This document shows, piece by piece, positions 11,233-64,000 of a stretch of 64,000 bases of DNA (position 1 is its first letter; every line of letters begins with the position of its first letter). The stretch is from contig JAFTSN010000016.1 of assembly GCA_017467275.1 (NCBI GenBank), positions 1-64,000 of the forward strand. Direction: 5' to 3'. A program made the position numbers and the translations under genes. Below the pieces are notes generated by a model, which worked only from the letters and a program-made list of their open reading frames with translations, was not told the DNA's origin and searched no databases. This DNA comes from Clostridia bacterium (lineage in GTDB: Bacteria > Bacillota > Clostridia > Christensenellales > Borkfalkiaceae).

Positions 11233-11332
11233 TTTTCCACCTCACGCGCCCCCTTAAGACGCCTCTTCTTCCTTTTCTTTCATCGCGACCATGGTATGCC
11301 CTTCCAATTTTCAACGCATACCTATCCGCCGC

Positions 11333-15046: not shown

Positions 15047-15064
15047 GTTTGCCTCTCCTGTGCT

Positions 15065-15832
15065 TTAATGCCTCTTTTTTACGTCGCCGTAATCAACCTC
15101 TATCAGCGTGAGCCCCTTTGCGGGCATGGTTTTCCCAACGAGATTTCTCTCCCCCGACTCAAAAGCGAGCGACAAGCTTTCCGCCGTGCGTTTGCCGAGC
15201 GCAAGCTCCATGAGCTCTCCCGCCATCGTGCGCACCATATTATATAAAAACCCGTTGCCCGTGACGAACATATCGATATTGCGCGAGCCGTAAGTAACGC
15301 TCTCCTCTATCCTTACCTCATACACCGTTCTAACCGTTGTTTTCACCGACGAGCCCGAAGCGCAGAACGCCTTAAAATCGTGTTCGCCCTCCAAGCGCTT
15401 TGCTGCTCTTTCGAGCACCGTCCTTTCAGGCGCGCATTCAAGACGCACCGCATAACGCTCTTTCAGCGGCATCTCCCTCGGAGAGACGTAGAAAGAATAG
15501 CGATAGGTCTTTCGCTTCGCGCTCCTATTTGCGTCAAAGCCCTCACGCGGCAAAAAGCCCTCCAAAAGCTTAATATCTGGCGGCAAAAAACGGTTGATGC
15601 AATCGGGCAGCTTTTCAGGCGGAACCGTGAGCCCCGCCGCGTCGAAATGACAAACCTGCCCCGCCGCGTGCACGCCTGCGTCCGTCCGTCCGCTCGCCGT
15701 GATCTTAACCCGCACACCCAACGCCTCTTGAACGGCGTTTTCAAGAATCTCCTGCACGCTTACCGCGTTCTTTTGCCGCTGCCAGCCCGCGTAAGCCGTT
15801 CCGTCGTAAGCAAGGATAAAAGCGTATCTCAT
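15065..15832 (-). CDS. truA: tRNA pseudouridine(38-40) synthase TruA
   Basis: This 255-residue enzyme isomerises uridines 38-40 in the tRNA anticodon arm. The N-terminus (YDGTAYAGWQRQ) and the catalytic motif SGRTDAGVHA with nucleophile Asp51 are intact. The ATG at 15832 follows GAGGTGG and lies a few bases downstream of the ecfT stop, so the genes are coupled. The ecfA-ecfT-truA order is the classic Bacillota arrangement, although there it is usually followed by ribosomal protein genes rplM and rpsI, which are replaced here by a CPBP protease gene. Confidence 0.96.
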   Translation of the reverse strand: MRYAFILAYDGTAYAGWQRQKNAVSVQEILENAVQEALGVRVKITASGRTDAGVHAAGQVCHFDAAGLTVPPEKLPDCINRFLPPDIKLLEGFLPREGFDANRSAKRKTYRYSFYVSPREMPLKERYAVRLECAPERTVLERAAKRLEGEHDFKAFCASGSSVKTTVRTVYEVRIEESVTYGSRNIDMFVTGNGFLYNMVRTMAGELMELALGKRTAESLSLAFESGERNLVGKTMPAKGLTLIEVDYGDVKKRH

Positions 15833-47452: not shown

Positions 47453-49819
47453 TTATTCAGTCTTTCTTCTTATTATCAATCCTACGCCACAAATGAGAAT
47501 GACGCACGGCAAAATTCCCACAACGCTCTTGCAGCCTTTTTTCTTTTTATCCTCGTTACCTACAGGCGGCTCGGGATCGTCGGGCTGCTCGTTGACAGGA
47601 GGCGTCGGTTCCTCGTCTACGTTCTTATCCTCGAGCATATCGGCAATATTTCCGTATGCAAAAGAATCTATGAGAAGCTCGCCCGAAAGATAATCCTTAA
47701 AGTAAATACGAATATCTGCAATCAGCGCGCGGGAGCTAGAAATATCCGTACGCCCCGATTCATTATAAAGCGCATCGAGCGAAAAGGCAAAGGCTTGATA
47801 ACCGCCGCCCGCCGAAATCTCCGCGCTCGTGCCGCTTCCGTTTGACAAAGCCAATTTGCCCGTTCTCCCGTCGGATAAGGTTACCTCGACGCATTCAAGT
47901 GTGATCGCACGGCTCTGCGGATTTTTAACCTTAAACGAAAGGGTGTCGTAGCGGGAAAACTGCTCAAAAACACCGCTTTGATTGAGCACGGGCGAAAACC
48001 AAAAGGTTTCCCTGCCGCGAAGTGCATACGCTATTTTCACAGCGTTTCCGTAGTCGCCGTCCTCTGAAACGGACAGCTCCGCCGTCGTGCTCGCAAGATA
48101 CGCCTCTCTATTTTCCGCAAGTCCCATGCTCGTGCCGCTTCCGTCGGACGCAAAATATTCCAACGCGTCGCAATACTGCCAATCTTTGGGATGATAGTAG
48201 CTAGAAGTGATTTTATCCGTCCTAAACGGCGCAACAGGAAAACCCTCTTCGGAACAGAGATTCGCTGAAACGCTCATCGCGGAAAAAGCATAAGTCGCCG
48301 CTATAGGCGTTTTTACAAAACGGCTCTTAAGGGTCACTCTGCCATCTACTCCTATTGTCGCTTCGGCGGGATAAAAGACCCTGTTCTCGCCGCAGATCGC
48401 AAAGCCCACGGGATCGAGACCGTTCACCGTCCTTAACGAAGAAGCGTTATAAAAGGACAGTTTCGCTTCGCCGTTTGCAAAAGTTGCCTCTTTGAACACG
48501 GGGGAGGACGTTTCACCCTGTCCACCGTAGAGCATATTGAGCGCAAACGCCGCCATGCGATCTCCTACGGGCTGCTTTACAATGGGATGAATGGGCGAGC
48601 GATAGGAAAATTTTTCATTATACCAATCGAGCGGGATATCGTAGGTCGTGACCATCGCCGCGCGGTCCCTGTTGGCAAGGTAAGCTTCTGCCATGCCCTC
48701 CCACATATACGCAAGCGCCTCGGGCTCATAGCCATAGTTGTGCGGCGTAACTTGCGCAAAGATGAGCGGAAGCACGGCGTCCTCGCCGCCAAACCAACGA
48801 GACCAATCTCGCATTAAGAGGGAAAGCGCGCTCTTATAGTACTGACCCGCAATTTCGTTTCCGACGTTGTTTTCGCCCTGATACCATAAAATGCCTTTCA
48901 CTTTAAAATTGGTCAGTGGCGCAATTTTGGAGTTGAACATCGCCGAGACCTGATTATAATTGTTGCTCCCAGCCTTATTGTAATCTTGCTCCGCAAGCAG
49001 TCGGTTTTTGGATTGTAAATACGCCCGAACGTCGCTATCTGAATCGATAGACGGACGGGAAAGCCATGCTTCTATGCTCGTCGCGCCTTTAGAGGCATTT
49101 AAAAATCCGACGGGAACCTGCGCTCCGTTTTTATTAAGCTGCTCAAAGAGCGTTACGGCAAAATTATAGGTGACCGCGCTGGCTCCTTGAATCATAACCG
49201 CACTGTCGCCGCGCACCCAAACGCCGCCCGAATAATACGCCGCAGGATAATACGGGAGGATAGCCGAACCCGATATCTCGGGTGACATAAAGACCCGCAA
49301 GTACGGATTATCTGCATTTTCCAAAAGCTCCTCGGCATTGGAGCAATATTGCACGTTGAGCGCCATATTCGATTGACCGCAGCTGATAAACACCTCCCCA
49401 AAAAGAATATGCTCGGCATCCACAGTCTTGCTTCCGTCTGTCGCCGTGAGCTTGTATTCTTGATAAGAAGCTGCTTTCTCTGAAAAAACGCATTCGTAAT
49501 AGCCGTTTTCATCCGCCGTTGCCGTTTTCGTTTCCCCGCCCCCGCCGTTCTGCTTTTCGAGGGTTACCGAAACAGAGCTGCCCGCAGGCGAAAAGCCCCA
49601 AACCGTTACGGGCTCGCCCTGCTGAAACATCATATTATCGCTGATCGCCTCGGCAAAACACAGTTCCGACGAGGGCGCACCCTCCGTGTTTAAACGGTAT
49701 GCCGCGGCATTCTCCGCAGGCGTTGCCGCGCTCGCCGAAACGCCTTTCCATTCGATTAATCCCACCGCGCCCGTCGATACAAGCAAAAAAGCGGACAGCG
49801 CCAATACATATTTACGCAT
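47453..49819 (-). CDS. Sialate O-acetylesterase-like secreted carbohydrate esterase with C-terminal anchoring tail
   Basis: This 788-residue exported protein has a signal peptide (MRKYVLALSAFLLVSTGAVG onward). An N-terminal beta domain (about 50-135) precedes an SGNH-type SASA domain with FISCGQSNM (nucleophile Ser150) and WYQGENNVGN. From about residue 545 a carbohydrate-binding-like beta-sandwich is likely. The C-terminus has a linker rich in Pro and acidic residues, then KKKKGCKSVVG, about 18 hydrophobic residues and RRKTE. That is a three-part anchor-like tail with a Cys before the membrane segment. It should remove O-acetyl groups from glycans outside the cell. It starts one base after the LRR gene stop. 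Confidence 0.87.
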   Translation of the reverse strand: MRKYVLALSAFLLVSTGAVGLIEWKGVSASAATPAENAAAYRLNTEGAPSSELCFAEAISDNMMFQQGEPVTVWGFSPAGSSVSVTLEKQNGGGGETKTATADENGYYECVFSEKAASYQEYKLTATDGSKTVDAEHILFGEVFISCGQSNMALNVQYCSNAEELLENADNPYLRVFMSPEISGSAILPYYPAAYYSGGVWVRGDSAVMIQGASAVTYNFAVTLFEQLNKNGAQVPVGFLNASKGATSIEAWLSRPSIDSDSDVRAYLQSKNRLLAEQDYNKAGSNNYNQVSAMFNSKIAPLTNFKVKGILWYQGENNVGNEIAGQYYKSALSLLMRDWSRWFGGEDAVLPLIFAQVTPHNYGYEPEALAYMWEGMAEAYLANRDRAAMVTTYDIPLDWYNEKFSYRSPIHPIVKQPVGDRMAAFALNMLYGGQGETSSPVFKEATFANGEAKLSFYNASSLRTVNGLDPVGFAICGENRVFYPAEATIGVDGRVTLKSRFVKTPIAATYAFSAMSVSANLCSEEGFPVAPFRTDKITSSYYHPKDWQYCDALEYFASDGSGTSMGLAENREAYLASTTAELSVSEDGDYGNAVKIAYALRGRETFWFSPVLNQSGVFEQFSRYDTLSFKVKNPQSRAITLECVEVTLSDGRTGKLALSNGSGTSAEISAGGGYQAFAFSLDALYNESGRTDISSSRALIADIRIYFKDYLSGELLIDSFAYGNIADMLEDKNVDEEPTPPVNEQPDDPEPPVGNEDKKKKGCKSVVGILPCVILICGVGLIIRRKTE

Positions 49820-49820
49820 A

Positions 49821-51053
49821 TTATTTCCTCTTTTTCTTCGTCAAAACGATCCCTGCACCGATCGCCGTGACTACCGCAGGAAAAATGCTCAAAGCGCCGT
49901 TACAGCCTTTACAGTTCTTTTTTTCGCCGCCTGCATTTTCGCTGCCTGTGTTTTCACCCGCAACAACCGTCAAGGCAAGATATCGCACGTAGCCGTTCTT
50001 CTTCACGCCGACGATACATTCCCCCTCTCCGATTGCCTTCACTTCGCCGTTTTCACTGACCGTAGCGACGGCTGAATCGGAAACAATATATTTCGCGTCC
50101 GTAAGCTCGCCCTCTTTCACCGAAAGGCGATAAGTTTCCCCAATCTTCAGATTTTTTTGCGTCTCGCTTAAAGCAAAGACCCCCTCTTTTTTCGTCTCGT
50201 CCGCCGCAGGCGAAACAATGAGCTTTTCCGCGGTGATTTCGTTCATCAGCGTACCGATTTGCTCATCCGAGACAAAATTCCGAGAGACGTCGAGATAGGT
50301 AAGCGATTTCATGCCGAACACCGCCGTAAAATCGTCGATATAGTTGTTTTCGACGGTAAATTGCGTGAGACCCGTAAGATTTTTAAGCGGGGAAATATCC
50401 GCAATTTTATTATTCCCAATCGCAAGGGTCTTGAGCGAGGTCAGATCCTTTAAGGGCAGGACGTCGGAAATTTGGTTAAAGGCAAAGTATCCTTTTTCGA
50501 GCTTGGAAAGTCCGCGAACAAAAGAGATATCTTCCAAGCCGCAAAGGCTCAAATTCAGATAGTTGAGTTCTTTAAAATTCGCAACGACCGAATAATCGCT
50601 CACACCTGCATTAGAGAGCGAAGAAAACCGCTTAAGCGAGGTTAAAGACGAGAGCATGGAAATATCCGTCACGCCGTCCACACCCGAAACCGCGCCGTCG
50701 TTATAGGAAATATCCAGCGTCTCAAGCTTCGTCAACCCCGAAAGAGGGCTCAAATCGGTGATTTTATTATAATCAAGATCAAGAGACACAAGATTGACCG
50801 CATATTCAAGCCCCGTCAAATTTTTGATCATTTTCGCGGGATCGTTTTCGGGCGTCTCGAGCACTGTCAGCCGTTTCATATCGTTTTCCGTGATCACGTC
50901 CGTGGAGAGCTCTAACGTTTCGATAATCGCGTTTTTTAAGCTTTCGTCGGGAATGGATATCCCCTCCGCCTGCGCTGCTTTAAACGGATTTACCGCAAAA
51001 GCCACGCCAAATGCGCCGATCAAAGCCAACAATCTCACCATTTTTCTTTTCAT
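49821..51053 (-). CDS. Secreted leucine-rich-repeat protein with Ig-like domain and C-terminal anchoring tail
   Basis: This 410-residue protein has a signal peptide ending near AAQA (residue 29) and a cap region. About seven SDS22/internalin-like LRRs of about 22 residues follow (LVSLDLDYNKITDLSPLSGL; LKTLAIGNNKIADISPLKNL; LTYLDVSRNFVSDEQIG). A BIG2-like domain (about 300-375; SDSAVATVSENGEVKAIGEG) and then a tail comes next: a Gly/Glu linker, KKNCKGCNG, about 18 hydrophobic residues and KKKRK. Two Cys lie before the membrane segment. LRRs should bind protein or glycan ligands at the surface. Its start overlaps the FAD gene stop by 4 bases. Confidence 0.86.
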   Translation of the reverse strand: MKRKMVRLLALIGAFGVAFAVNPFKAAQAEGISIPDESLKNAIIETLELSTDVITENDMKRLTVLETPENDPAKMIKNLTGLEYAVNLVSLDLDYNKITDLSPLSGLTKLETLDISYNDGAVSGVDGVTDISMLSSLTSLKRFSSLSNAGVSDYSVVANFKELNYLNLSLCGLEDISFVRGLSKLEKGYFAFNQISDVLPLKDLTSLKTLAIGNNKIADISPLKNLTGLTQFTVENNYIDDFTAVFGMKSLTYLDVSRNFVSDEQIGTLMNEITAEKLIVSPAADETKKEGVFALSETQKNLKIGETYRLSVKEGELTDAKYIVSDSAVATVSENGEVKAIGEGECIVGVKKNGYVRYLALTVVAGENTGSENAGGEKKNCKGCNGALSIFPAVVTAIGAGIVLTKKKRK

Positions 51054-54000
51054 GCCGCCACCTCATTCATATATTCGTAAATTCTGTTCAACAGGACACG
51101 GAGCATTTCTCCGTCCACCGCCTTTTTCGCAAGCACCAATCCGTACCAATACTCGCGGAGAGTCGCATCCTCCGTGGGATCATCCGAGAACGTGAAATCG
51201 GTTGCGCTGACAGCCTCGTTAAGCGCAGAGCCCGTCACACCCGCTTTGCCCGATATTCCACGGAATGCACGGATAATCAGATTCCGCGTTTCGCCTTGGT
51301 TTAAAGTGCCGCCCGTTTTGGCGTTCGTCCTAAAGTATTCCTTACCATAGCTCCCCTCGACGATGTAGCCTTGCGAAACCAACCAATTAAGCACGGCGTC
51401 GGACAGCTCGGCAACGCCACCCGCCTGCAATTCGAGCTGAACAAGCTTATCCACTGCCTTTTCCACGAGATTGATAAGATTTTGCACCGTCACGTCCTTA
51501 GTGGGGTCGTTGACGATCGCAATCCATGCCGCATCGTTGGAAATGATACCGTTTTCCTTCAGTGCAGCAACCGCCTTTGCACCGTCCGTTGCCGTCTCGT
51601 CCATCGGCTTGGCAAGCGCAATCAACAGCTCCACAATCTTGCTTCCCGCCGCCGTGTTGGAATTGTTTCCGTGGCGAATGAAATAGGTTGCCGTTTCCGC
51701 CGTGATATGCGCCTTTTCGACAAGATAGGCATAGTCTGCCAATACGCCGCCAATAAATTTACAGCACCAATTCACAATACTCATGCAATCCTGTCCCGAA
51801 ACGGAGGCGGTTCCCGAAAGGAGTCCGTTCCAATTCTCTGCGTTCGCAATCGCGTTGATATCCTTAAGCACGGCGAGCGCTAACGAAAGCTCCGTCGCCG
51901 TCGGATCGATAACGGCGGCAAGGCCCAAAAAGGTCTTCTGCGCGAACGCAGGATCGGCATAGCCGAAGGTTGAAAATACTTTTTCAGCCGTCTCCTTTTC
52001 CGTTGCGGACAGAATATTTTTCCCTGTGAGAAGCGCAAGAGTCTCCGCGGAAAGCGTCTCGTTGTTTTCCTCTATATAGGCGTGAAGCTTGCGTATGATC
52101 GCGTTTGCCGCGCCGCCCTCGACCATGGAGCCGTTCAAAGCGTTCGCGTCGTCTGCGTCGATCGCGCCCGCTTCCACGAGCTTTTCAACGCTCGTTTCCC
52201 CGTTCACCGAAAGTCGGGTGGAGATTCTGCTCAACAGAACGTTTAATCGAGCAAACTCGACCGTCCTTCCGCTGACGGCGTTCTCCGACAGATAGTCGCA
52301 ATCAGTTTCTCCAAGAATTCCGTGTTCTACAAAATAACCCGTGATTTCCGAAGAAAGCGGCTCCACAACAGGCGTCGAACGAATCACGGAAGCGAGGGAG
52401 AGCAAAAACTCTCTCCAATCCGCGCCCGAAACGCTTTCGCCGTTCATCGCGCCCGAAACGCCCTCAACGCTCACACCGAGCGCTTGCAAAACGTCAAGCG
52501 CATCCGTTTCCGTCGCGTTCGTATTGAAATATCCCGCCGCGGCAACAATTACGCCCTTCACAAGCATGCCGTCCGCACTCTTGCCGTCCTCCGTAGTTTT
52601 TAAAAGCTCGGAATAATCCTCCTCGGCAAAGAGGGATTTTTTCAAGAGAAAATCGAGCGTCGCAACGCCTATCCTCTTACCGAAAATCTTAGCTTCGTTG
52701 TTTTTTAAATAGCTGTAAACATTCTTCAAAAGTCCGTTCAAAGAGCTTCCCGAAACGCTTTCGCTCTCTCCTCGGAATACGGGCTCCCAAACAGCGGAAT
52801 TCCCCGTAATCTTGGTGTTAATAAACACCTGCAACGCCTCGTCACTCGATAAAACGGACGCATCGATCGTACGGGCGATTGCAATAAGCAACGCCTGCGT
52901 TTTCGCCCCGTCTGTGGTCTTACCACTGATCGCGTTATCGTCGAAATACCCTCTCGTATCCCCGTCGATGATATCCTGTTCATAGAAGTATTTAACCCAA
53001 TCGGAAATATAGCCGAGCGGAGATTCGTTTTTAAAGAAATCGGCAACCTTATTGAAGATTGAAACGACGTTCTCCACGGGAAGGGAGGCAGGCAACGGGT
53101 CCGCAAAAACTTTTTCCCATGCAGACATGTTAGAAATGATGCCGTATTTATTGAGTACTTTGAGCGCGCCGTCTGTTCCCGTGCCCGAAACGATGCGGTT
53201 TGCCGCGGCAACGAGCGCTTTTTGTACCGCACCCACACGCTCTGCGTTATTAAATCCGTCACTGACCGCCGCGCGCAACGTCTGCGCATCCGAAATGTCG
53301 ATCAGCCCTAAAACATTGAGTTTCAAAACAACGAGATCGCCGCTCGATAAATCGTCTGCAACGATATCGCCGAGCTTTTGTCCGTTTAAAGACAGCGTTG
53401 CCGCGAGCGTGGCATAGTCGAGCTCCTGCACACAAAATTCAGGATCGCTCTCTATTTCCCGCGCGCAAAGCGCCGCAGCTGTTCCCGCTGATTCGCCCAC
53501 GATCATATAGGTCGTCTCCATACGGATAGAGCCGTAAGCCGCATGCGTGGAGGAGAGACAGACGGGCACGAACAGATTTTCACACTGCTCTTTTTTCGGG
53601 CGAATAGATTCGTAGGAAATGGGATAATCGCGACGTGTCGACCAGAAATTGCCGTCCGTCTGATATCCGTCACCGAGCGAGGAAGAAACCTTATAGTACG
53701 CCACGCGGTGAGAGTCAAACCAATAGAAGCCCTGCCCCACGGAATGAGGCGCGGTCGTCTTTTGAATGACGCCCGGAACGGCGTTTTGAATGACGTCGCT
53801 TTCTTTCATGACGTAGTCACTGACCATTCTGCGCCCTTCGCGAAGATAAATTTCAATGGGAAAATTGCCGTTTTCAAGAAATTCGTCCTTGGCAAGCCCG
53901 TACGTTCTCATCTCCTCACGCACGGAAAGAGGCACGCGTTCGTCGTAGGCATAAAACCAAAGAAGCCCTAAAACGTAATCTCGATGATCGTCCGCAATAT

Positions 54001-55075
54001 TTTTTCTGCTCAGGTAATCCCCGTTGGCGTATTCGTAGCTCATGCCGACGAAATCGGCGTGGTTTGTATCCGTTTTATTGTTCGGCATACGATTCTGCGT
54101 GAGCTCGTTCCCCACCTTCGGATTGCTCTGCAAAAGCCGTGCGCGCGTTTCATACCACTCGGGATGATAGTTCTCGGGTTTTGTGATGGGCAGGCGGTTG
54201 TTGGGATCAGTGCTGAGCGTAAAGCGGAAGCAATACGCCTGCACACGCCCGTCTCCCTCGCCCTTTGCACCCAACGAGGCATCTTCGATAAAGGGCAGAA
54301 GTCCGCTGTCGGGGTCGCCCTCCACAACGTAAGGGCTGACCGCCGTATATTCGTTGAGGTTGGGCAATATTCCGTTCATAGTCTCGCCGTAGGTCGCGTT
54401 CGCCTCCCGCCCGACGGTGTATTCCACGCCCGCCTCCGCCATAAGATCGCCCTCATACGAACAGTCGATAAAGACCTTGGCTTCATACGTCTTACCGCTT
54501 TCCGACTCAATGGAGGTAATTCTGCCGTCTTCCGTTTTCACGCCGCCGTCAAGCTCAAGAGGCTCGTTAAAAACGACGGGCACGCCCGCGTCGATTAACA
54601 TGTCTTTAAATACCTGCTGCGCCACCTTGGGCTCAAACACCCACTGCATCTTTAATGCGTCGTCCTTGCCGCCGAAGATCGCACCGTTACTCACGAGCCC
54701 AAAATAGTCCTCGCTCGTTTCGCTCGTCCAAGCCGCATCGTTTTTATAATACTCGTAGATTCTGTTATAAAATTCCCACGAGATGCCGCCGACGACGTTT
54801 TTATTCGCCATATCCGTCGCGCCGAGACCCGACGAGGTCAAGCCGCCGATATGCCCGTTTTGCGAAATGAGCAAAACGTCCGCCCCCTCGCGCTTTGCCG
54901 CAATCGCCGCGGTCACACCCGCGCTCGTCGCGCCGTATACGACGACGTCGTAGCTCCCCTCGCTTCCGATAACGAGCTCCTCCGCTTTAGGCTTTTTTGC
55001 CGACTTCGGCATAAAGCCCAAAGCGACGGGACAAAGCACGCCGAGCGCAAGAATAATTGCCGTTATTTTCTTCAT
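51050..55075 (-). CDS. Secreted FAD-dependent oxidoreductase with six large C-terminal helical repeats
   Basis: This 1341-residue protein has a signal peptide (MKKITAIILALGVLCPVALG) and an FAD-dependent oxidoreductase domain of the FAD_oxidored family (about 35-560). The Rossmann motif is VVYGATSAGVTAAIAA, followed by SQNGHIGGLTSSGLG and the C-terminal FAD contact MIVGESAGTAAALCA. From about 570 to the end lies an acidic helical region of six diverged repeats, each about 100-117 residues, with GIISNxxAW-type motifs near 648, 758, 875, 975, 1083 and 1182 and xYFxxNAxSG segments between. The repeat fold is not one I recognise. ATG at 55075 has AAGGAG upstream. Its substrate is unknown; the locus suggests a sugar. 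Confidence 0.85.
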   Translation of the reverse strand: MKKITAIILALGVLCPVALGFMPKSAKKPKAEELVIGSEGSYDVVVYGATSAGVTAAIAAKREGADVLLISQNGHIGGLTSSGLGATDMANKNVVGGISWEFYNRIYEYYKNDAAWTSETSEDYFGLVSNGAIFGGKDDALKMQWVFEPKVAQQVFKDMLIDAGVPVVFNEPLELDGGVKTEDGRITSIESESGKTYEAKVFIDCSYEGDLMAEAGVEYTVGREANATYGETMNGILPNLNEYTAVSPYVVEGDPDSGLLPFIEDASLGAKGEGDGRVQAYCFRFTLSTDPNNRLPITKPENYHPEWYETRARLLQSNPKVGNELTQNRMPNNKTDTNHADFVGMSYEYANGDYLSRKNIADDHRDYVLGLLWFYAYDERVPLSVREEMRTYGLAKDEFLENGNFPIEIYLREGRRMVSDYVMKESDVIQNAVPGVIQKTTAPHSVGQGFYWFDSHRVAYYKVSSSLGDGYQTDGNFWSTRRDYPISYESIRPKKEQCENLFVPVCLSSTHAAYGSIRMETTYMIVGESAGTAAALCAREIESDPEFCVQELDYATLAATLSLNGQKLGDIVADDLSSGDLVVLKLNVLGLIDISDAQTLRAAVSDGFNNAERVGAVQKALVAAANRIVSGTGTDGALKVLNKYGIISNMSAWEKVFADPLPASLPVENVVSIFNKVADFFKNESPLGYISDWVKYFYEQDIIDGDTRGYFDDNAISGKTTDGAKTQALLIAIARTIDASVLSSDEALQVFINTKITGNSAVWEPVFRGESESVSGSSLNGLLKNVYSYLKNNEAKIFGKRIGVATLDFLLKKSLFAEEDYSELLKTTEDGKSADGMLVKGVIVAAAGYFNTNATETDALDVLQALGVSVEGVSGAMNGESVSGADWREFLLSLASVIRSTPVVEPLSSEITGYFVEHGILGETDCDYLSENAVSGRTVEFARLNVLLSRISTRLSVNGETSVEKLVEAGAIDADDANALNGSMVEGGAANAIIRKLHAYIEENNETLSAETLALLTGKNILSATEKETAEKVFSTFGYADPAFAQKTFLGLAAVIDPTATELSLALAVLKDINAIANAENWNGLLSGTASVSGQDCMSIVNWCCKFIGGVLADYAYLVEKAHITAETATYFIRHGNNSNTAAGSKIVELLIALAKPMDETATDGAKAVAALKENGIISNDAAWIAIVNDPTKDVTVQNLINLVEKAVDKLVQLELQAGGVAELSDAVLNWLVSQGYIVEGSYGKEYFRTNAKTGGTLNQGETRNLIIRAFRGISGKAGVTGSALNEAVSATDFTFSDDPTEDATLREYWYGLVLAKKAVDGEMLRVLLNRIYEYMNEVAA

Positions 55076-55094
55076 TTTCCTTTTCTCCTTTTTA

Positions 55095-56372
55095 TTATTT
55101 CCATACAGAGGTCTTTTTTCCCTCCGCATCCTTTGAATTGCTCTTAAAAACCTCTTTCAAATAGCTGAACGAATAGGTCTCCACGCCGTCGGGGCGCAAA
55201 AGATAGAAGCCGTTCAACTCTCCCGCCGAAAAGTTATACGCACGAAGTGCGGTTGGCGAGAGCTTTTTGATTACGGACGCGTTTTCCCCGACGAGCTCGT
55301 TACAGCAGAGCTGCCAATACACCGCGTACTGCAACCGACAGGCATCCAGCGCAAGCAAATGCCCCTCCGCGACCGTTTTTTGCCACTCTCCCGAATAGCC
55401 GTCCGCCTTGTCGGGATACCCGAATTCCGTGATCGCGAGGCGGTTATCCCCAAAATATACAGGTTGAGGATACCGTTCCTTTTCGGGCAATTTACTCCTA
55501 TAATATCCCATTGCCGCTTGGAGCGCGACAGAGATTTCCTCTGCGTTTTTGAATTTGTCTTTATCCTTATATTCGTAGCTCGAATAAGCATAAAGATCGG
55601 CATACGTATACGGAACGACGTAGTCCACCGCTTTAGAATAGGTATACGAACCGTCGAGCTTATTGATCTCGAGCGCACCGAACACGAAAACGTTCTTTTC
55701 TTCGTCCATGCCGAATTCCGCGCGGGCGCGGTTTATGCCGTCCTGACGGACGTTGAAATATTCCGCATACCGACGGAGCACGATCACCTCGTCCATACCT
55801 TCCATGGAATAGCGAATATAGTTATCCGTTTCCCAATTCTGCAAAATAAAGGTCTTTCCGCTTCCGCGATAGGTCTCCAAAAGGTATTTTGTCGCCTCGT
55901 AAAACTCCCGCTCTACGCTCTCCTTTTCCTCTTCGCTCATACCGTCCGTATATTTGGCGCGGCTCTGCTCGGTGATGCTGATGAAAAACGTCTTGAAATC
56001 CATTTGAAACAGCTCGGCATACCTCGCGTTTTTCAAAACGTCGACGCAAGCGGAAAAGCTTTCCCCCGACCAATCGTCCAGCGGATACTGTGATTTCGGA
56101 TCGCCGCAGGCAATCTTGATCACCTTGCCCCCACTTTCCAAAATCTTTTCCGCTCCGTAAAGAAGCGAGGTTTTGTCTTCGGGCAATGAAGGCATATACA
56201 TTGCGCCCCAATTCGTGATCCCGACCCGCTCGGCATAAGGTGAGGAGGTGTTATCCACCAAAAGCGTTTTCTTCTCCTCGGGTGGCGGCTCACTCGCCGT
56301 TTCACAGGCGGAAAAGCCCGCCGAAAATATCAGCCCCACGGCAAGGGCGATCGCCGCCTTACTTCTTTTCAT
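55095..56372 (-). CDS. Glycosidase-like lipoprotein, paralogue of the 57.9-59.9 kb gene
   Basis: This 425-residue lipoprotein (signal ending FSAC, Cys23) has a predicted alpha/beta barrel. The signatures GKTFILQNWETDN (Glu181) and LAITEFG (Glu316), with YWQLCCNE after it, resemble the acid/base (end of strand 4) and nucleophile (end of strand 7) regions of clan GH-A glycosidases. The same blocks recur in the 639-residue protein upstream in the operon. VDYVVPYTYADLYAYS is another block they share. Its ATG lies within the last codons of the preceding gene and has no clear ribosome site, so coupling is likely. I cannot assign a family; it could be a catalytic glycosidase or a binding protein. 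Confidence 0.78.
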   Translation of the reverse strand: MKRSKAAIALAVGLIFSAGFSACETASEPPPEEKKTLLVDNTSSPYAERVGITNWGAMYMPSLPEDKTSLLYGAEKILESGGKVIKIACGDPKSQYPLDDWSGESFSACVDVLKNARYAELFQMDFKTFFISITEQSRAKYTDGMSEEEKESVEREFYEATKYLLETYRGSGKTFILQNWETDNYIRYSMEGMDEVIVLRRYAEYFNVRQDGINRARAEFGMDEEKNVFVFGALEINKLDGSYTYSKAVDYVVPYTYADLYAYSSYEYKDKDKFKNAEEISVALQAAMGYYRSKLPEKERYPQPVYFGDNRLAITEFGYPDKADGYSGEWQKTVAEGHLLALDACRLQYAVYWQLCCNELVGENASVIKKLSPTALRAYNFSAGELNGFYLLRPDGVETYSFSYLKEVFKSNSKDAEGKKTSVWK

Positions 56373-57924
56373 GGCGTTTACGGAGCACAATGAACGCGGT
56401 CACCCCGCCCGCGACAACGACCGCGCCGACAATCCCGAGCACAACGGGAAGCAAAACCGAATCGTTCTTCTCCACCGTTACGGCGATTACGCCGCTCACC
56501 TCGTCGAAGCCCTCGCCGACGGTTACTTTAACCTCGTATTCGCCCGCCTTTTTATAGTTGACGGCGGAATCGTCCACTGCGTAATATTCCGCGGGCACTT
56601 CAATTTCCTTCCATTCGGGCGCATTGACCGTGCCGATATTGGTTTTTGCCGTCACCTTGAGCTTTTCCGCGGAAAACTTCTTCTTTTCGGAAAGCTTCAA
56701 ATTCACTTCGGAAAGATCAAAGATAAGCTCGTCGGGGCGCATGACCTCCACGTAGTAGGAAGCGCTCTCGTAGCCCTCCTTTTTCGCATTAATTTGATAA
56801 ATTCCAACCTGATAGCGATTGAATTTACTGCTGTCGAGCGTGAATGCGTTCTCGTCGAAACTCTGCTCCTTTATTCCGTCGCCAAGCACGTCGTAGTAAG
56901 CGAGCCCGTCGGCGGAAAATTGCTCGCCGTAGGCAAAACGCACTTTCGCCGCCGTCTTATCCACGGCAATCCCCGTTTGGGTCAACGTCTCGAACCCGCC
57001 GTTATAGGGTTCGCTCATTGTGAATTTTACGCCCGTGAGATAGATTCCCTCATCGTAAGGGACAGGAAAATTCTCGTAAACGTCCGCTTCTGAATCAGCC
57101 GAGCTTGCGGGCTTTAAGGTTCTGCGGATATAATCCGTGCCGATTCGGATCTTCGCCGCCTCGGGCACGTTCGATATATGCACCGTCACACTATATTCCT
57201 TATCCCCGCCAAGGAAAGTTGCTGCCGAGATGCGATAGGAATTGGCGTCGAGCACCATCGGCACCCATTCGTTGCTTCCCTCCACGCAGTATTCCGCGTT
57301 GATCATGGGATACAAGAAGCCTTTTTTGAGAATGGTAAAGCCGTCCGTATCGATTGTTCCCTGCACTTCGTTGGGCACGGTGAACGGACGAAGCTGGTTC
57401 GGTATATCGAGCATGGAGGGCACAAAGCTGTATTTTTGCCCCGCAATATACCCCCACCAACGGTTCTCCGTGAAGATAAACGGCTTGCCGTCTGTGCTTA
57501 AATAAATGGGAAAGACATTCTGAAGATTGATATTCGACGTGTTATTCAGCGGCATATTATTCACTTCGTCCGTGACGCCGAGTGAGAGCCCCCAGCCATG
57601 ATTCGCCCCGAAATTAGACTGACGGACGATCGCCGTCACGTCTATCTCGTTCACACCCGAAAGCTCGTAGGTGATATATTCTCTCCCCTCGCTTTCGCTT
57701 TTGAGCCGAACGCCAAAGCCATATTTAGTGTAGGGCTTATGAACGTCGTTAAGCTCCACCCGCTCCATATTTTCCGAAATCGTGCGAACGAGCGGCGCCG
57801 CCCCGAAATCGTCGCGCAGGATATAGCTCGTTGCCGCCGACGTGACCTTTCTTTCTCCGCCAAACGGCAGAAAAACAGCCACAAAAGCCAAAGCCGATAA
57901 AAGCAAACTAACTAGCCTTTTCAT
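56359..57924 (-). CDS. Membrane-anchored extracellular beta-rich protein, function unknown
   Basis: This 521-residue protein has a signal peptide (MKRLVSLLLSALAFVAVFLP) and an extracellular part of about 440 residues. Its first half looks like a carbohydrate-binding-like beta-sandwich, followed by a region with Ig-like beta repeats (KFNRYQVGIYQINAKKEGY; YKKAGEYEVKVTVGEG). The C-terminus has one membrane helix (LLPVVLGIVGAVVVAGGVTA) and a basic tail (RKRHEKK). It lacks LPXTG and Cys. It sits between the two paralogous glycosidase-like lipoprotein genes and may bind their polysaccharide substrate. Confidence 0.75.
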   Translation of the reverse strand: MKRLVSLLLSALAFVAVFLPFGGERKVTSAATSYILRDDFGAAPLVRTISENMERVELNDVHKPYTKYGFGVRLKSESEGREYITYELSGVNEIDVTAIVRQSNFGANHGWGLSLGVTDEVNNMPLNNTSNINLQNVFPIYLSTDGKPFIFTENRWWGYIAGQKYSFVPSMLDIPNQLRPFTVPNEVQGTIDTDGFTILKKGFLYPMINAEYCVEGSNEWVPMVLDANSYRISAATFLGGDKEYSVTVHISNVPEAAKIRIGTDYIRRTLKPASSADSEADVYENFPVPYDEGIYLTGVKFTMSEPYNGGFETLTQTGIAVDKTAAKVRFAYGEQFSADGLAYYDVLGDGIKEQSFDENAFTLDSSKFNRYQVGIYQINAKKEGYESASYYVEVMRPDELIFDLSEVNLKLSEKKKFSAEKLKVTAKTNIGTVNAPEWKEIEVPAEYYAVDDSAVNYKKAGEYEVKVTVGEGFDEVSGVIAVTVEKNDSVLLPVVLGIVGAVVVAGGVTAFIVLRKRHEKK

Positions 57925-57939
57925 AATATTCCCCTCTCT

Positions 57940-59859
57940 TTATTTCAAAAATGCCACGCGGCAGATTAACGGATCCCAAGAGTTTGCCGCTTTCGTGTTC
58001 GTGAACACCACCCGAACGCTCGTGTACCCCACGGGAATGCGAGTCGTGATATAAAGATAGCCGTATTCCCCCGTTTTATCCATCACGTAGACGGAGGAGA
58101 GCTTCTCGTAATCCGTGCCGTTTTTAGTCGCCATCACTTTGATCATGGACTTTGGTACGGGGTCGTAAATAAAGCCCTGCATGACGAATTTCGCTTCCGC
58201 GTCCTCGGACGGGCGAACAATCTTATACTGAATGTATTCCTCGTTCGGATTGTTCGGTTTTTTCTGTACGACGTGATATCCCACGTCGTCGGTCAAGCCG
58301 TATTTTTCGAGATAGCGGGAAAGAAGCGGTCTGTCGGCCTCACGAACGTGATCGTAGTTCATGCCCTCCGAATACCCTTCCATTTTACGGTTGCGGGAAA
58401 TATCCGGTCCGTCGAGCCCCATATCGTCGAAATTATCAAAGAAGAGCATATCTGCCTCGACAAAGGGGATAGGCTCCTCCTGCGGCGCGGGCATACGCAT
58501 CACCGCTTTGGGTCTAACCGAAAGGAAGTTCTTGTTTTCAAAAAGCCCCTTTAAATACCAAAAAGTCTCCGTGATCGTGCCGTCGGGCTTTAAAAGCCAA
58601 TACCCTTTCATGTCCCGATTCTCAGGACGGGCGCTCTCGCCGCCCACACGCTCGTTGCACGTTAGCGACCAATAGCAGACGTAGCGGACGCCCTTATTGA
58701 TCGCAATTTTTGCCGTCTCCATCGAATAGACAAATTGGTTTTTCTCATCCGCACTACCCGAATAGTATTCCGCTCTGCCAAACTCGCCGAGCGCAATATC
58801 CGACATTGTTTTCTTTTCCCCCGCCTCGCGGTTTTCATTGATTTTGGAAAGATAATAGTCCAAATCCTCGGAAAGCTTGGAGTTTGCCGTCGACCAATCG
58901 GAGAAAGAGAATACGTCCGCAGTGGAATAGGGCACGACGCAATCAACAAGCTTTGCCTGCCCGCCGCCATTATAGGAGATATAATTGACCTCGAGAGCGC
59001 CAAGCACGTCGACATTGACAATGCTTCCCGCCTCTTTGAGCTCCTCACGGGCACGGACAATCCCCGCCTGCCGCGCGTTGTTGTAGGCGAGATAGTTTGC
59101 AATAATCGTCTCCTTATCCGCCTCTTTCGCCGCTTTCAGCGCAGGCGTAAGCTCGTTATCTCCCTCCCAATTTTGGAGTACAAACGTTTTACCCGATGCG
59201 TTATACGCGCGCAAAAGCTCTCTGGTCAACTCATAGAATTCGCCGCTTACCCTTTCCAACTCGCGCTCGGAAACAAGCGTTCCGCTGTTCCATACTAGCC
59301 GCTCGAATTCGTAAACAACCATAACGACCGTTGAAAAATCCATGCTCAAAACACGCTTGACCTCGGACGTTTTAATAAGCTCGGTCAAGCTCTCATAGTT
59401 TCCCCACTCCGCGTTAAAGGAATATTGGTCCGCTACGTCGCTACCCAAAAAAAGCTTAATCACCTTTGAGCCGATATCTTTACGGATAACGTTCGCGCCC
59501 TCCGTCAAATAGGATTGTGCCGTGAAATTATACTGCCCACCCGCATGAACGATGCCGATGACGTCCTCCGCCTTGCGAGTTTCGTCAAAGGAAAACGGGA
59601 CGTCGGAATGCACGTCGGAAAAGGCAGGATAATTATCGTAGCCGTCGATAAAGCCGTTGATACCGTTATAGGTTATATCGCCCGAGATATCGTCCACCGT
59701 CACGAGATCGACGTAGCGGTTTCCGTTTTCGTCAAACGCCGCGATCTCCTCTTGCTCGGGCGGTTCGGGCTTTTTCTTGGACTTCTCCCCGCAAGCGACA
59801 AAACAGGAAAGGCTCATAATGCAAGCCGAAAATATTGCGATAATTTTATTTTTCTTCAT
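57940..59859 (-). CDS. Glycosidase-like lipoprotein with C-terminal beta domain
   Basis: This 639-residue lipoprotein (signal MKKNKIIAIFSACIMSLSCF, then VACGEK with Cys23) has an N-terminal region of about 400 residues with an alpha/beta barrel pattern. GKTFVLQNWEGDN (Glu232), VDCVVPYSTADVF, IALGEFG (Glu359) and YWSLTCNERVG match the paralogue at 55.1-56.4 kb. The two Glu residues occupy positions expected for clan GH-A acid/base and nucleophile. The C-terminal part (about 450-639) is a separate beta-rich domain, perhaps for carbohydrate binding. It begins 14 bases inside the LacI gene. I do not know a described family for it. Confidence 0.8.
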   Translation of the reverse strand: MKKNKIIAIFSACIMSLSCFVACGEKSKKKPEPPEQEEIAAFDENGNRYVDLVTVDDISGDITYNGINGFIDGYDNYPAFSDVHSDVPFSFDETRKAEDVIGIVHAGGQYNFTAQSYLTEGANVIRKDIGSKVIKLFLGSDVADQYSFNAEWGNYESLTELIKTSEVKRVLSMDFSTVVMVVYEFERLVWNSGTLVSERELERVSGEFYELTRELLRAYNASGKTFVLQNWEGDNELTPALKAAKEADKETIIANYLAYNNARQAGIVRAREELKEAGSIVNVDVLGALEVNYISYNGGGQAKLVDCVVPYSTADVFSFSDWSTANSKLSEDLDYYLSKINENREAGEKKTMSDIALGEFGRAEYYSGSADEKNQFVYSMETAKIAINKGVRYVCYWSLTCNERVGGESARPENRDMKGYWLLKPDGTITETFWYLKGLFENKNFLSVRPKAVMRMPAPQEEPIPFVEADMLFFDNFDDMGLDGPDISRNRKMEGYSEGMNYDHVREADRPLLSRYLEKYGLTDDVGYHVVQKKPNNPNEEYIQYKIVRPSEDAEAKFVMQGFIYDPVPKSMIKVMATKNGTDYEKLSSVYVMDKTGEYGYLYITTRIPVGYTSVRVVFTNTKAANSWDPLICRVAFLK

Positions 59860-60901
59860 AATTTAAGTCCCTCACGGAATTTCTTTCTATAAGCGTTGTG
59901 TTCAGCTCCATATTAATAGAATTGCTGCGCTTATTCTCCATTCTGTCTATAAGCAGTCTGACCGCCTGCACGCCAATTTCCGATTTCGGAATATCAATCG
60001 AGGTGATATCGTGCTCCAATGAATAATTCACGTTGTCCACGCCCACCACGGACAGCCTTTCGGGGATATTCAACCCCATTTTCTGTGCGAGCGCAACCAC
60101 CCGTCTTAAAACGCTGTCGTTAAAACAGACGATCGCGGCATGACCTTTCAGCTGCTTGAGCTCCTTTTCCAAGACGCTCTCGTTAAGGAGTTCGTTCTCC
60201 TCGTTATAATAGACTTCGCTTACAGGGTGCGTTTTTTCACAGTCGATAATCGGGACGCACTCAACGCGTTTCCCCGTCCGCACCGCATGCTTTACGGCTT
60301 TCATCGCGCCATAATAGCGCTGCAAAAAGGAAAAGCTGTAATCGATGTTTCCCACGAGCAGAATATTATCGTGTCCTTTCTTTAAGAGATAATTAACCGC
60401 CTGCATGCCCGCATTGAAATTATTTGCCATAACGTGATCGGCAGAGACGGCGGGCGGGCTGATCATATCCACGAATACGAGCGGAATATTCAAGGAATCT
60501 ATCTTTTCAACGAGCGAGGTCGAGCATTGGTTGAGAATGATAACGCCCTGCACTTTGTTGTTCAAAAGATTCATTGCGACGTCCTCTCTGTCCTTGAATC
60601 CCGTCCAGCCAACGATATTGAAATTGACGTTTTCTTTGGCGCATTCGCTTTCAATTCCGATAATACACTGCCGCCAAAACTCCTCGTTCAGCACACCCAT
60701 ATTCTTGATGAGCAGTGAAATCGTCTTATCCTTTCGGGCGGGCGGCGTCTTGAACTCATAGCCCATTTCAATCGCCTTAAGGACGATTTTCGTTCGCATC
60801 TCCTCGCTTACGCCGTACTTATTACGAATCGCAAGAGAAACCAGCCCCTTTGAAACGCCGAGCGAATCGGCAATTTCTTGAAACGTTACTTTTTTTGCCA
60901 T
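59846..60901 (-). CDS. LacI-family transcriptional regulator
   Basis: This 351-residue repressor has the N-terminal LacI helix-turn-helix (VTFQEIADSLGVSKGLVSLA, residues 4-23, with hinge helix following) and a sugar-binding periplasmic-like core from about residue 60. It lies between the permease and glycosidase-like genes on the same strand, so it probably controls this locus in response to a glycan breakdown product. The ligand is unknown and no operator was located in the window; the operon promoter is outside it. Confidence 0.93.
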   Translation of the reverse strand: MAKKVTFQEIADSLGVSKGLVSLAIRNKYGVSEEMRTKIVLKAIEMGYEFKTPPARKDKTISLLIKNMGVLNEEFWRQCIIGIESECAKENVNFNIVGWTGFKDREDVAMNLLNNKVQGVIILNQCSTSLVEKIDSLNIPLVFVDMISPPAVSADHVMANNFNAGMQAVNYLLKKGHDNILLVGNIDYSFSFLQRYYGAMKAVKHAVRTGKRVECVPIIDCEKTHPVSEVYYNEENELLNESVLEKELKQLKGHAAIVCFNDSVLRRVVALAQKMGLNIPERLSVVGVDNVNYSLEHDITSIDIPKSEIGVQAVRLLIDRMENKRSNSINMELNTTLIERNSVRDLNYEEK

Positions 60902-60904
60902 CTT

Positions 60905-61750
60905 TTACCCCTTTAACGCCCCTGCCGCCATGCCTTCGATAATATAGCGTTGCAAGAACACGTAAAGGCAAATGACGGGCAGAGCAACGGTGAAAGTTGC
61001 CGCGGAGATCCCCGTCCAATCGGACGAAAATTGCCCCTTGAAAGCAAACAGTCCCGTCGAAATCGTCATGTATTTGTCCTCAATCAAATAGATATATGGC
61101 GTTAGGAAATCGTTCCAACCGCCAACGAGCTTTAAAATAAAGACCGTCGAAAGAATGGGCTTCATGAGCGGAATCACAAATCCGAACACGTAACGGAAAT
61201 ATCCGCAACCATCGATAAACGCCGCCTCGTCGAGATCGCGCGGAATGTCTTTCACAAATTGAATCGCCATGAAGATATAGACGGTCAATCCGCCGAAGCC
61301 CCAGAAAATTACGAGCACGAACGGACTGTTATATAACCCGAGGTTTTGCACGAGAAAGATATTCGCAATCAGGCTTCCCGGGAAAAAGGTGGAAAGCAGA
61401 ATAAAGGTGAACACCTTATCCGAGCCCTTGAAATGCCCCCTCGCTAAAGGAAACGCCACAAGCGCGATCACCACGCAGGAAATGAGCGCGGAGCCGACCG
61501 TGATTCCCACGGTGTAGGCAAGGCGACCGAACACGTCGAGCACCTCAAATGCTTCCTTATAGTTGGCAAACAGCTCCTTAAACGGCTTGAACGCAAACAG
61601 CCCCGACGGATCCTTTAAAAAGTCCGTGCTGGATTTTAAGGACACGTTCAAAACGAGCAAAAGCGGAAAGACCATAACAAGAGTCATAACCGCAAGCGCC
61701 GTCCAACAAAGAACGGTCACACCAATCGGTTCTCTTCTCAATTTCTTCAT
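60905..61750 (-). CDS. Carbohydrate ABC transporter permease (MalG/CUT1 type)
   Basis: This 281-residue inner-membrane protein has six predicted helices and the EAA loop with DLDEAAFIDGCGYFRYVFG, which docks on the ATPase. C-terminal FLQRYIIEGMAAGALKG is the usual ending of this family. It forms a heterodimer with the MalF-like protein, whose gene overlaps it by 4 bases. No ATPase gene is in the window; as in many Bacillota CUT1 systems, a shared MsmX-type ATPase elsewhere is likely. Confidence 0.95.
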   Translation of the reverse strand: MKKLRREPIGVTVLCWTALAVMTLVMVFPLLLVLNVSLKSSTDFLKDPSGLFAFKPFKELFANYKEAFEVLDVFGRLAYTVGITVGSALISCVVIALVAFPLARGHFKGSDKVFTFILLSTFFPGSLIANIFLVQNLGLYNSPFVLVIFWGFGGLTVYIFMAIQFVKDIPRDLDEAAFIDGCGYFRYVFGFVIPLMKPILSTVFILKLVGGWNDFLTPYIYLIEDKYMTISTGLFAFKGQFSSDWTGISAATFTVALPVICLYVFLQRYIIEGMAAGALKG

Positions 61751-62658
61751 TCCTCCGCCTCCTTTCGCCTAACCGTCGCATTAAATACGAGCATGACAAG
61801 CATGACGAACAGCGAGAAATAGATATTGAGTGCCGCCGCCTGCCCTTGATTGGAAGCGCTGTTGGTGGCAAGCTGGAAGATATAGAGCGCGAGCGTCGTT
61901 GTGTTCGCCGTGCCGTTGGTTAAAACGAATATGATATCGAACATGGCGAGCGTGCCACTGATGGATATCCAGAAATTGATTACAAGCGTGTTTTTAAGAA
62001 GAGGCAACGTGATATACCAAAACATTTTACCCCCCCTTGCGCCGTCGATCTCTGCCGCCTCGCGGATATCCTCGGAGATATTTTGAAGCCCCGCAATATA
62101 CACGACCATGGCATAGCCGAAATTCGACCAAATCGCCACGAGCACAACGAGGAACATGCTTAAGACTTCCTCCCCCAAAAGTGCGGAGGATTTCCCCAGT
62201 TTCGTAAGGATAACGGCGATCGGGCCCGAAACGGGATCAAATACAAGCTGCCAAGTAAACCCGACCACAGACACGCCGAGAATGGTCGGCATGAAAAAGA
62301 GCGCACGGAAGAAAGAGCGTCCCTTGAACTTCCGCGCCACAACGAGCGCCATTCCAAGGGAAAGCGCCTGCTGAACGATCACGACGGAGATAGAAAATAC
62401 CACCGTGTTCAAAAGAGAATCCCAAATTGAAACGGAGGCGTCGCCCACCTTGAACGCCCGTATGAAATTATCAAATCCCACAAACTCAAAGGGCTGCCCC
62501 ACTCCGTGATAGTCCGTGAAGCTAATCGCCAGATTGACGATCGAAGGCAGCATGGACAGCACGAATATGCTGACAAGCGCGGGCAACGTCGCCAAAATCG
62601 CCACGTAGGGATTGACGAGCGGCGAGGTCTTGAGTTTACTGTGTTTCTTCTTCTCCAC
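61747..62658 (-). CDS. Carbohydrate ABC transporter permease (MalF/CUT1 type)
   Basis: This 303-residue inner-membrane protein has six helices and the EAA loop with DIREAAEIDGARGGKMFWYI. A GTG start at 62658 (VEKKKHSKLK) is chosen because AAGGGGG precedes it by 6 bases, just after the binding-protein stop. The longer frame starts with TTG inside that gene. It pairs with the MalG-like permease and the solute-binding lipoprotein. The sugar imported is unknown. Confidence 0.94.
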   Translation of the reverse strand: MEKKKHSKLKTSPLVNPYVAILATLPALVSIFVLSMLPSIVNLAISFTDYHGVGQPFEFVGFDNFIRAFKVGDASVSIWDSLLNTVVFSISVVIVQQALSLGMALVVARKFKGRSFFRALFFMPTILGVSVVGFTWQLVFDPVSGPIAVILTKLGKSSALLGEEVLSMFLVVLVAIWSNFGYAMVVYIAGLQNISEDIREAAEIDGARGGKMFWYITLPLLKNTLVINFWISISGTLAMFDIIFVLTNGTANTTTLALYIFQLATNSASNQGQAAALNIYFSLFVMLVMLVFNATVRRKEAEE

Positions 62659-62669
62659 CTTTTGCCCCC

Positions 62670-64000
62670 TTATTTCGTGTGCGCGAGCCCCGTATATTTC
62701 TCCCAATCCTTTTTATTGAGTTCCACCCGTTGTTGCAGGCTATCCGCGACCGATTTCGCCGTCAAATCTCCTTTCATAAGGCTGGATATCTCCGAAGCGG
62801 ACGGGAGCGGGAAGTATCTCGGCATTCTCGAATCGTAAGCCTCGACAAAGGTATATTTCGCGCTATCGAAAATAGAATTTACCAGCTCATCGCTCTGCGT
62901 TACCGTTGTTTTCACGGACGGAGTTTTCGTGAAATTCACAAACTTTTGGTAAACCTCGTCGCGGAAGAATATCTCGAGGTATTTTTCGGCAACCGTCTTT
63001 TTGTTTGAGCCGTTAAAGACGGAAAGCGTTGTGCCCGTCTTGACGGCAAGGTTCTTTTTCCCCTCTCCGTTCACGGGATTTTCAACCGCAGGCAAGGCAA
63101 ACGCGCCAATCTCGAATGTAGCCTCCATCTGCGAATAACTCCACGTCCCGTCGATCATCATGGGATATTTCTTACCCGTGGTCGGATTGCCTATGGAAAA
63201 ATAGGTGCTTGCAAAGGAATAATCCAACCCCCAAATTTTATTGTCGACGTAATCCCCGATTTTTTTGACTTTGTCAAACGCTTCCTGCCATATCGCATTG
63301 TTAAAACGGATATTCTCATTCGTGTCGTAGTCCTTGATCGAATGGAAAAATTCGGGCTGACTGATTTCCACAACGTCCGCAACGACGGAATTTAAAACGG
63401 TCATCGTCGGCCATTCCGATTTCCCGCCGAAAATAATCGGCGCTTCAATAGGCGTCAGCGCCACGCCGTTTTGCACTACGGGATATTCCGCAGCCTCTTT
63501 AAATAAATCCAAGACGGCTAAAAACTCACTCCAAGTCTCGGGCGCCTCCACGCCATACTCCGCAAACAATCCCTTATCATAGTAAACGACGTTCGCCACC
63601 TGCTCTAAAGGCAGAGTTAAAAGCTCGGGTTCTCCGCCCGCAGAGGGATCATAAAAGCTCCCCCTCGTCAAATATTCAGCTTTGATTCCGTCCATGTAGT
63701 CCTGCTTCGTCAAGGGTTGCATATAGGCGTTGGTACCCTGCATCATATAGGTTACCTCGGAGGTGAACACGTCGAGATATTTACTCTGCACACGGGAGGA
63801 AAACACGGTGTTGTAGTTGTTGGTGTCCACCGCTTTATAATCCACCGACTTAATCGACGGATTTTCCTTTAAAAATATCTTGTTGACTTCCTCGAAAAAC
63901 TCGTTATATTCGGGTTTAAAGGACAATACGTATAAGACGTCCTTCGACGGACCGCCGCAGGAAGCGAACGAGCCGCAGACCGTCGCCCCGACCAACACAG
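62670..64000 (-). CDS. Extracellular solute-binding lipoprotein (CUT1 type), 5' partial
   Basis: The frame runs off the window edge, so the N-terminus is incomplete. The visible part includes a lipobox-like GSFASCGG and a long periplasmic-binding-protein domain that begins YVLSFKPEYNEFFEEVNKIF. VVYYDKGLFAEYGVEAPETW, YPMMIDGTWSYSQ and the hinge regions typical of sugar-binding ABC proteins follow. It should capture an oligosaccharide at the membrane and pass it to the two downstream permeases. The promoter of the whole locus is presumably upstream, outside the window. Confidence 0.92.
   Translation of the reverse strand, partial: VLVGATVCGSFASCGGPSKDVLYVLSFKPEYNEFFEEVNKIFLKENPSIKSVDYKAVDTNNYNTVFSSRVQSKYLDVFTSEVTYMMQGTNAYMQPLTKQDYMDGIKAEYLTRGSFYDPSAGGEPELLTLPLEQVANVVYYDKGLFAEYGVEAPETWSEFLAVLDLFKEAAEYPVVQNGVALTPIEAPIIFGGKSEWPTMTVLNSVVADVVEISQPEFFHSIKDYDTNENIRFNNAIWQEAFDKVKKIGDYVDNKIWGLDYSFASTYFSIGNPTTGKKYPMMIDGTWSYSQMEATFEIGAFALPAVENPVNGEGKKNLAVKTGTTLSVFNGSNKKTVAEKYLEIFFRDEVYQKFVNFTKTPSVKTTVTQSDELVNSIFDSAKYTFVEAYDSRMPRYFPLPSASEISSLMKGDLTAKSVADSLQQRVELNKKDWEKYTGLAHTK

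Follow-up and report, generated by a model that had tools for sequence, protein, structure and literature searches.

Introduction

Glycosidases of clan GH-A usually carry an Asn just before the acid/base Glu, with known exceptions. GH5 (PF00150), which includes endoglucanase E (4im4), belongs to this clan, and GH26 (PF02156) acts on beta-mannans. According to the available part of its description, the GH164 beta-mannosidase Bs164 is a clan GH-A enzyme with Glu-160 and Glu-297 on strands beta-4 and beta-7, about 137 residues apart (PMC7105311). CapGH173, a beta-galactosidase, represents GH173, which the available portion of its source presents as a recently founded GH-A family that is remote from GH5 and GH30 and stands beside GH2 in polysaccharide utilization loci (PMC8810776). 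Here, we analysed two lipoproteins, P0001 (425 amino acids, aa) and P0002 (639 aa), encoded in a 64,000-nucleotide stretch of DNA (the window) from contig JAFTSN010000016.1 of a Clostridia bacterium of the Borkfalkiaceae (GCA_017467275.1). Judging from their sequences, both proteins are likely members of a previously undescribed, clan GH-A-like retaining glycosidase family.

The family resembled Bs164, as far as the available description of that enzyme goes, in a clan GH-A-type pair of Glu residues with similar spacing and in a beta-mannoside theme. However, its profile did not match Bs164 among the PDB sequences at E<=10. With GH26 it shared a residue other than Asn before the acid/base (His in two GH26 sequences). 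The likeness to GH173 was one of description: the accessible part of that source likewise deals with a GH-A family that is remote from GH5 and found beside GH2.

Paralogous lipoproteins with near-invariant residues

A first-pass annotation of this DNA had proposed that P0001 and P0002 were paralogues sharing several motif blocks. Accordingly, the two proteins were 37% identical (E=3e-39, aligned over P0001 residues 50-412), and every block was found in them: GKTFILQNWETDN/GKTFVLQNWEGDN, DYVVPYTYAD/DCVVPYSTAD, AITEFG/ALGEFG, and YWQLCCNE/YWSLTCNE. Both had signal peptides with a lipobox-like Cys (FSAC and FVAC), judged by eye. The two Glu residues proposed as a catalytic pair about 130 residues apart were correctly numbered, and lay 135 residues apart in P0001 (E181/E316) and 127 residues apart in P0002 (E232/E359). 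Neither protein had a match worth naming in Pfam, NCBIfam, or PHROG, and single-sequence searches of the PDB returned nothing better than E=0.68.

Conservation was counted in 37 active-type domains (P0002 numbering), which remained from 43 aligned rows after removal of three fragments (L059, L063, and L064) and three rows of the inactive clade described below. Namely, G102, F226, W231, R263, D315, E359, and W397 were invariant, and N230, E232, D234, E290, and S320 were each present in 36 of the 37 domains. Rows L038-L065 came from a search pattern that fixed the residues surrounding E232 (accepting E or D), so the conservation of N230-D234 was partly built in for these rows; E359, W397, S320, R263, and E290 lay outside the pattern. 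The spacing between the two Glu residues ranged from 114 to 173 over 38 rows, with a median of 129.5. One member, L074, had Ser at E290. Another, encoded on a Halobaculum plasmid (L073, 8884-10788), had His at N230 and Gln at E232, giving His-Trp-Gln, and kept the second Glu, E359; this protein looks like a glycosidase that would lack its acid/base.

Three lipoproteins from one Christensenellaceae genus, which falls in the same order as the source of the window, formed a clade with a support of 100 (L033, L035, and L036). Among the 37 columns in which at least 80% of the active-type rows agreed, eight were altered in all three proteins. Six of these were N230, W231, E232, S320, E359, and W397, and the other two changes were conservative (K135 to Arg and F175 to Leu). 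N292, G361, and N402 were altered in part of the clade, and 26 columns, including E290, were kept. The joint loss marked a functional unit that holds both Glu residues of the originally proposed pair and leaves E290 out.

This pattern bore on the possibility that the catalytic pair includes E290 instead of E232, or that the protein is a transglycosidase or a substrate-assisted enzyme. The high conservation of E290, the inexact alignment of E232 with the GH5 acid/base, and the Halobaculum member that retained E359 next to a changed 230/232 pair were all consistent with this idea. Nevertheless, E290 was demoted as a catalytic partner since the clade that changed both E232 and E359 retained it, and we regarded the alternative as unlikely.

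The inactive clade was also relevant to a second alternative, namely that the window pair consists of non-catalytic glycan-binding lipoproteins that originated from a GH-A enzyme and capture sugars for an ATP-binding cassette (ABC) transporter. A catalytically altered binding pair had been offered in the first-pass annotation as well. The two lipoproteins did adjoin such a transporter, and the Christensenellaceae proteins were examples of altered members elsewhere. However, both window proteins kept all six positions or their equivalents, the altered members belonged to another clade, and a solute-binding protein was already present in the locus, which made this explanation very unlikely.

Relation to GH5 and clan GH-A

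The profile built from 41 family domains found GH5 proteins first among the PDB sequences: endoglucanase E (4im4, E=0.0011) was followed by 6kdd (0.19), and the matched stretch included the GEFG motif, which was placed on the GH5 nucleophile motif. Alignment of the family with 12 GH5 sequences by hhalign was collinear over 247 columns (P=2.1e-4). When other profiles were aligned to GH5, the barrel of GH2, which truly belongs to the same clan, gave 5.8e-5, a value close to that of the family, and GH26 gave 0.021. Seven non-GH-A profiles gave 0.0047-0.45, the strongest among 100 column shuffles reached 0.17, and the reversed GH5 profile gave 0.36. The similarity to GH5 was, in this sense, weak but specific. 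In all six hhalign settings E359 was opposite the GH5 nucleophile and S320 was opposite the invariant His of the H-x-Y motif; W397 was opposite the GH5 Trp in four settings, and the alignments in the other two stopped short of it. E359 was accordingly identified as the predicted nucleophile, which would lie at the end of strand beta-7. The strand numbers (beta-4, beta-7, and beta-8) are those that we assumed from the anatomy of GH5, and a Chou-Fasman average over the family lacked the resolution to argue for or against eight beta/alpha units.

At the same time, the family was distinct from GH5. Out of 13 GH5 loci found, 12 were used for hhalign and 11 for the motif check and a PDB profile. The latter profile matched 368 PDB sequences at E<=10 and found 4im4 at 5.8e-36, compared with 0.0011 for the family profile; the family therefore lies outside GH5. 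All 11 GH5 sequences had Asn-Glu and His-x-Tyr motifs; the family had Trp-Glu in place of the former and a Ser where the latter has its His. Moreover, none of the 41 domains matched PF00150 at E<=0.1, and PF02156 was not among the 16 Pfam families obtained at this threshold.

Several results weighed against a clan GH-A-like assignment. The value of 0.0011 was a whole-sequence E-value, and the best stretch of 4im4 taken alone had an i-Evalue of 0.037. The probability that hhalign itself gave to the GH5 match was 46%, and one gap setting reduced the signal to P=0.01. E232 was four residues before the GH5 acid/base in 6/6 settings, and the Asn usual at the preceding position was replaced by Trp in 37/37 domains, as the first-pass annotation had noticed for the window pair. 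No similarity of the family was detected by hhalign to the GH2 barrel (P=0.28) or to GH26 (P=0.52, two GH26 sequences), and the window operon contained no GH2 gene.

Given the weakness of the PDB and hhalign signals, the resemblance to GH5 might have arisen by chance, in which case the proteins would have a different barrel or another fold and would not be glycosidases. We considered this highly improbable, since the signal was collinear and stronger than all 100 shuffles and the seven non-GH-A controls, the positions aligned with GH5 were the same ones that the inactive clade had lost jointly, and the neighbouring genes encoded glycan enzymes. At the level of sequence, the earlier suggestion of a new retaining glycosidase family was thus partly supported, by the lack of a curated family, the place of E359 on the GH5 nucleophile, the near-invariant residues, their joint loss, and the neighbours.

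Family membership and distribution

The 41 domains had only scattered weak matches in Pfam and NCBIfam (best E 0.0035). The Pfam family SelB-wing_1 (two members), 15 other Pfam and 12 NCBIfam names (one member each), and TBPIP_C (0.0016 for a whole 371-aa protein) were judged to be chance matches. The library and profile comparisons led us to reject membership in GH5, in GH26, and in all Pfam, NCBIfam, and PHROG families, in agreement with the initial failure to place the pair. The novelty of the family was judged against Pfam, NCBIfam, PHROGs, and PDB sequences. A literature search that included the family motif and two accessions found no description of the family, as judged by titles.

After removal of duplicates, there were 43 cellular members from 33 loci in addition to the phage members, and 10 of the 33 loci contained two members. 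Matches were present in 7 of the 398 genomes from the GTDB family of the source organism, one of which (G236; E=9.7e-4, 73 positions) was judged to be due to chance and dropped. The order, class, and phylum samples had matches in 7/396, 4/391, and 1/398 genomes, the last being the source genome itself; these genome sets overlapped, and a different profile and cut-off were used for the class and phylum scans. The family is thus rare among the genomes searched. A profile scan of the genome contig collection revealed 28 loci, many of them in metagenome bins, and a single-sequence scan of this collection with P0001 found no relatives. According to the record titles, these loci came from Clostridia, Paenibacillus, Haloplasma, Bacteroidales, Flavobacteriaceae, Spirochaetes, Opitutia, Halobacterium, Thermoanaerobaculum, and candidate-phylum bacteria. 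Additionally, three records of haloarchaeal plasmids carried a member annotated as a hypothetical protein.

Some shorter members (L007, 371 aa; L042, 441 aa; L072; and L044, 414 aa) formed a clade (support 99 and 98) and accompanied another family member in the same locus. The 371-aa protein, the sole shorter member examined for this feature, had no signal peptide by eye. Because this absence was judged by eye for that protein alone, a division of labour between the surface and the cytoplasm is only a suggestion.

Members were also identified on five viral contigs, four of them distinct since the proteins of L092 and L093 were identical. On L091, a 353-aa member followed genes for the terminase large subunit, the portal, and the major head protein and preceded a virion structural protein. 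The L099 member was split over two open reading frames (ORFs), and a tail sheath gene (3.7e-70) followed directly. On two of the four distinct contigs the member thus lay among genes clearly recognisable as head or tail genes; L092 had one weak structural match (6.6e-6), and the neighbours of L094 had almost no PHROG matches, so that a phage context was not visible there. The three different intact phage proteins kept both Glu residues and formed one clade (support 99). Two queries against 50,697 deposited phage records gave no match. The natural reading of these proteins is that they are putative virion-associated depolymerases.

Gene neighbourhood and proposed mechanism

The neighbours reported initially, i.e. 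a sugar ABC transporter, a LacI regulator, an esterase, and an oxidoreductase, were all recovered (Table 1).

Table 1. Positions of the two lipoproteins, their predicted functional residues, the neighbouring genes, and family members at other loci
Feature	Position	Strand	Basis or remark
P0001, 425-aa lipoprotein, second family member	55095..56372	-	ORF from ATG; TTG six codons upstream would give 431 aa
P0001 N179-W180-E181 codons, predicted acid/base	55830..55838	-	motif and family alignment
P0001 E316 codon, predicted nucleophile	55425..55427	-	motif and family alignment
P0001 W353 codon, predicted beta-8 Trp	55314..55316	-	family alignment
P0002, 639-aa lipoprotein	57940..59859	-	family domain at about residues 97-444, then C-terminal domain
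P0002 N230-W231-E232 codons, predicted acid/base Glu at end of strand beta-4	59164..59172	-	conservation; predicted role
P0002 E290 codon (LEVN), third conserved Glu, no role assigned	58990..58992	-	conservation
P0002 S320 codon, place of the GH5 His of the H-x-Y motif	58900..58902	-	conservation and hhalign
P0002 E359 codon (GEFG), predicted nucleophile at end of strand beta-7	58783..58785	-	conservation and hhalign; predicted role
P0002 W397 codon, predicted beta-8 Trp	58669..58671	-	conservation and hhalign
P0002 C-terminal domain, residues 474-639	57943..58440	-	aligned in L038, L039, L040, L043
788-aa SASA carbohydrate esterase	47453..49819	-	PF03629 3.2e-11
410-aa leucine-rich-repeat protein	49821..51053	-	LRR_4 1.1e-21
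1359-aa exported FAD oxidoreductase	51050..55129	-	PF12831 2.9e-96; signal peptide by eye
521-aa protein between the paralogues, C-terminal membrane anchor	56359..57924	-	Big_3 at 1.4e-4, sole match
LacI-type regulator	59846..60901	-	PF13377 4.3e-22; 14-base overlap with P0002 start
ABC permease	60905..61750	-	kept in L038, L039, L040, L043 and others
ABC permease	61747..62706	-	kept in L038, L039, L040, L043 and others
442-aa solute-binding protein at the edge of the window	62670..63998	-	phmmer 4e-37 to Paenibacillus SBP_bac_1 protein of L046; no Pfam match
Inactive-clade lipoproteins, one Christensenellaceae genus	L033:8378-9847, L035:8532-10001, L036:9557-11056		six active-site positions lost
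Phage family members	L091:10001-11062; L092:10001-11044; L094:9989-11029; L099:7995-8645 + 8752-8997		uncultured phage contigs

The window, L038, and L039 had the same gene order: the solute-binding protein, two permeases, LacI, the P0002-type protein, the 521-aa-type protein (split into two ORFs in L039), the P0001-type protein, and the flavin adenine dinucleotide (FAD) oxidoreductase. The C-terminal domain of P0002 is possibly a carbohydrate-binding beta-sandwich, a guess at its role; its profile gave no PDB match better than E=0.22.

For adjacency, some 20 kb of each locus was considered in 13 genomes, with the genome of L057 left out. Coordinates were compared by eye, and these judgements underlie the probabilities below. 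FAD_oxidored genes adjoined the family in 8 of the 13 genomes versus 0.32 expected (all except G001, G138, G437, G1519, and G1520), and in G108 and G115 the adjoining gene was the only copy found. SASA genes were adjacent in 7/13 genomes versus 0.56 expected. With near relatives removed, the counts were 6/11 for FAD (P=2e-8) and 5/11 for SASA (P=2e-5). Given this recurrence of PF12831 proteins beside the family, an exported flavoenzyme may contribute to glycan breakdown.

GH2 genes were present at L043, L046, L052, and L057. The two that were compared, from L046 and L007 (identical with the L043 locus), had a beta-mannosidase as their best PDB match. L007 also encoded a PfkB kinase and a D-lyxose/D-mannose isomerase (7nzo, 2e-64), and genes for GH38 and GH94 enzymes were present at L046 and L047, respectively. 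Since the window operon had no GH2 gene, the mannoside idea rests on these other loci, and an acetylated, mannose-containing glycan is our guess at the substrate from the neighbours. Separately, the GH2 gene of L052 was flanked by two URO-D-like genes (10901-11851 and 14430-15446), which were unexpected in a sugar locus.

If the lipoproteins are retaining glycosidases, they would sit on the outside of the cell membrane and bind, through a (beta/alpha)8 barrel, a glycan that is acetylated and perhaps contains mannose. The leaving group would be protonated by the Glu of NWE (E232/E181), predicted to lie where beta-4 ends, and the Glu of EFG (E359/E316), predicted to lie where beta-7 ends, would attack C1 to form a glycosyl-enzyme. 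The first Glu would then activate water, releasing the product with retention of configuration. The SASA esterase would strip acetyl groups, the two paralogues may differ in the linkage or position that they cleave, and import of the products through the solute-binding protein and permeases would be under LacI control.

Significance

A wider joint reading, which we advance tentatively and to which we give somewhat less than even weight, is that an unrecognised GH-A-like family occurs in bacteria, haloarchaea, and phages. Its cellular members would take part, with SASA esterases, beta-mannosidases, and exported FAD oxidoreductases, in a module that catabolizes an acetylated mannoside. Uncultured phages would have recruited the family as a virion-associated depolymerase of polysaccharides, and in one Christensenellaceae genus it would have turned into a catalytically dead lipoprotein. 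Under this reading, the Trp that precedes the acid/base would hint at a -1 sugar whose C2 is unusual or substituted. The phage versions lie near head and tail genes, a setting in which the known depolymerases are mostly beta-helices. The natural clade without the active-site residues is a built-in control, and the partner set that recurs across phyla narrows the search for the substrate. If its members are glycosidases, this family without a Pfam, NCBIfam, or PHROGs entry would give access to an as yet unassigned share of glycan use in the gut and the environment.

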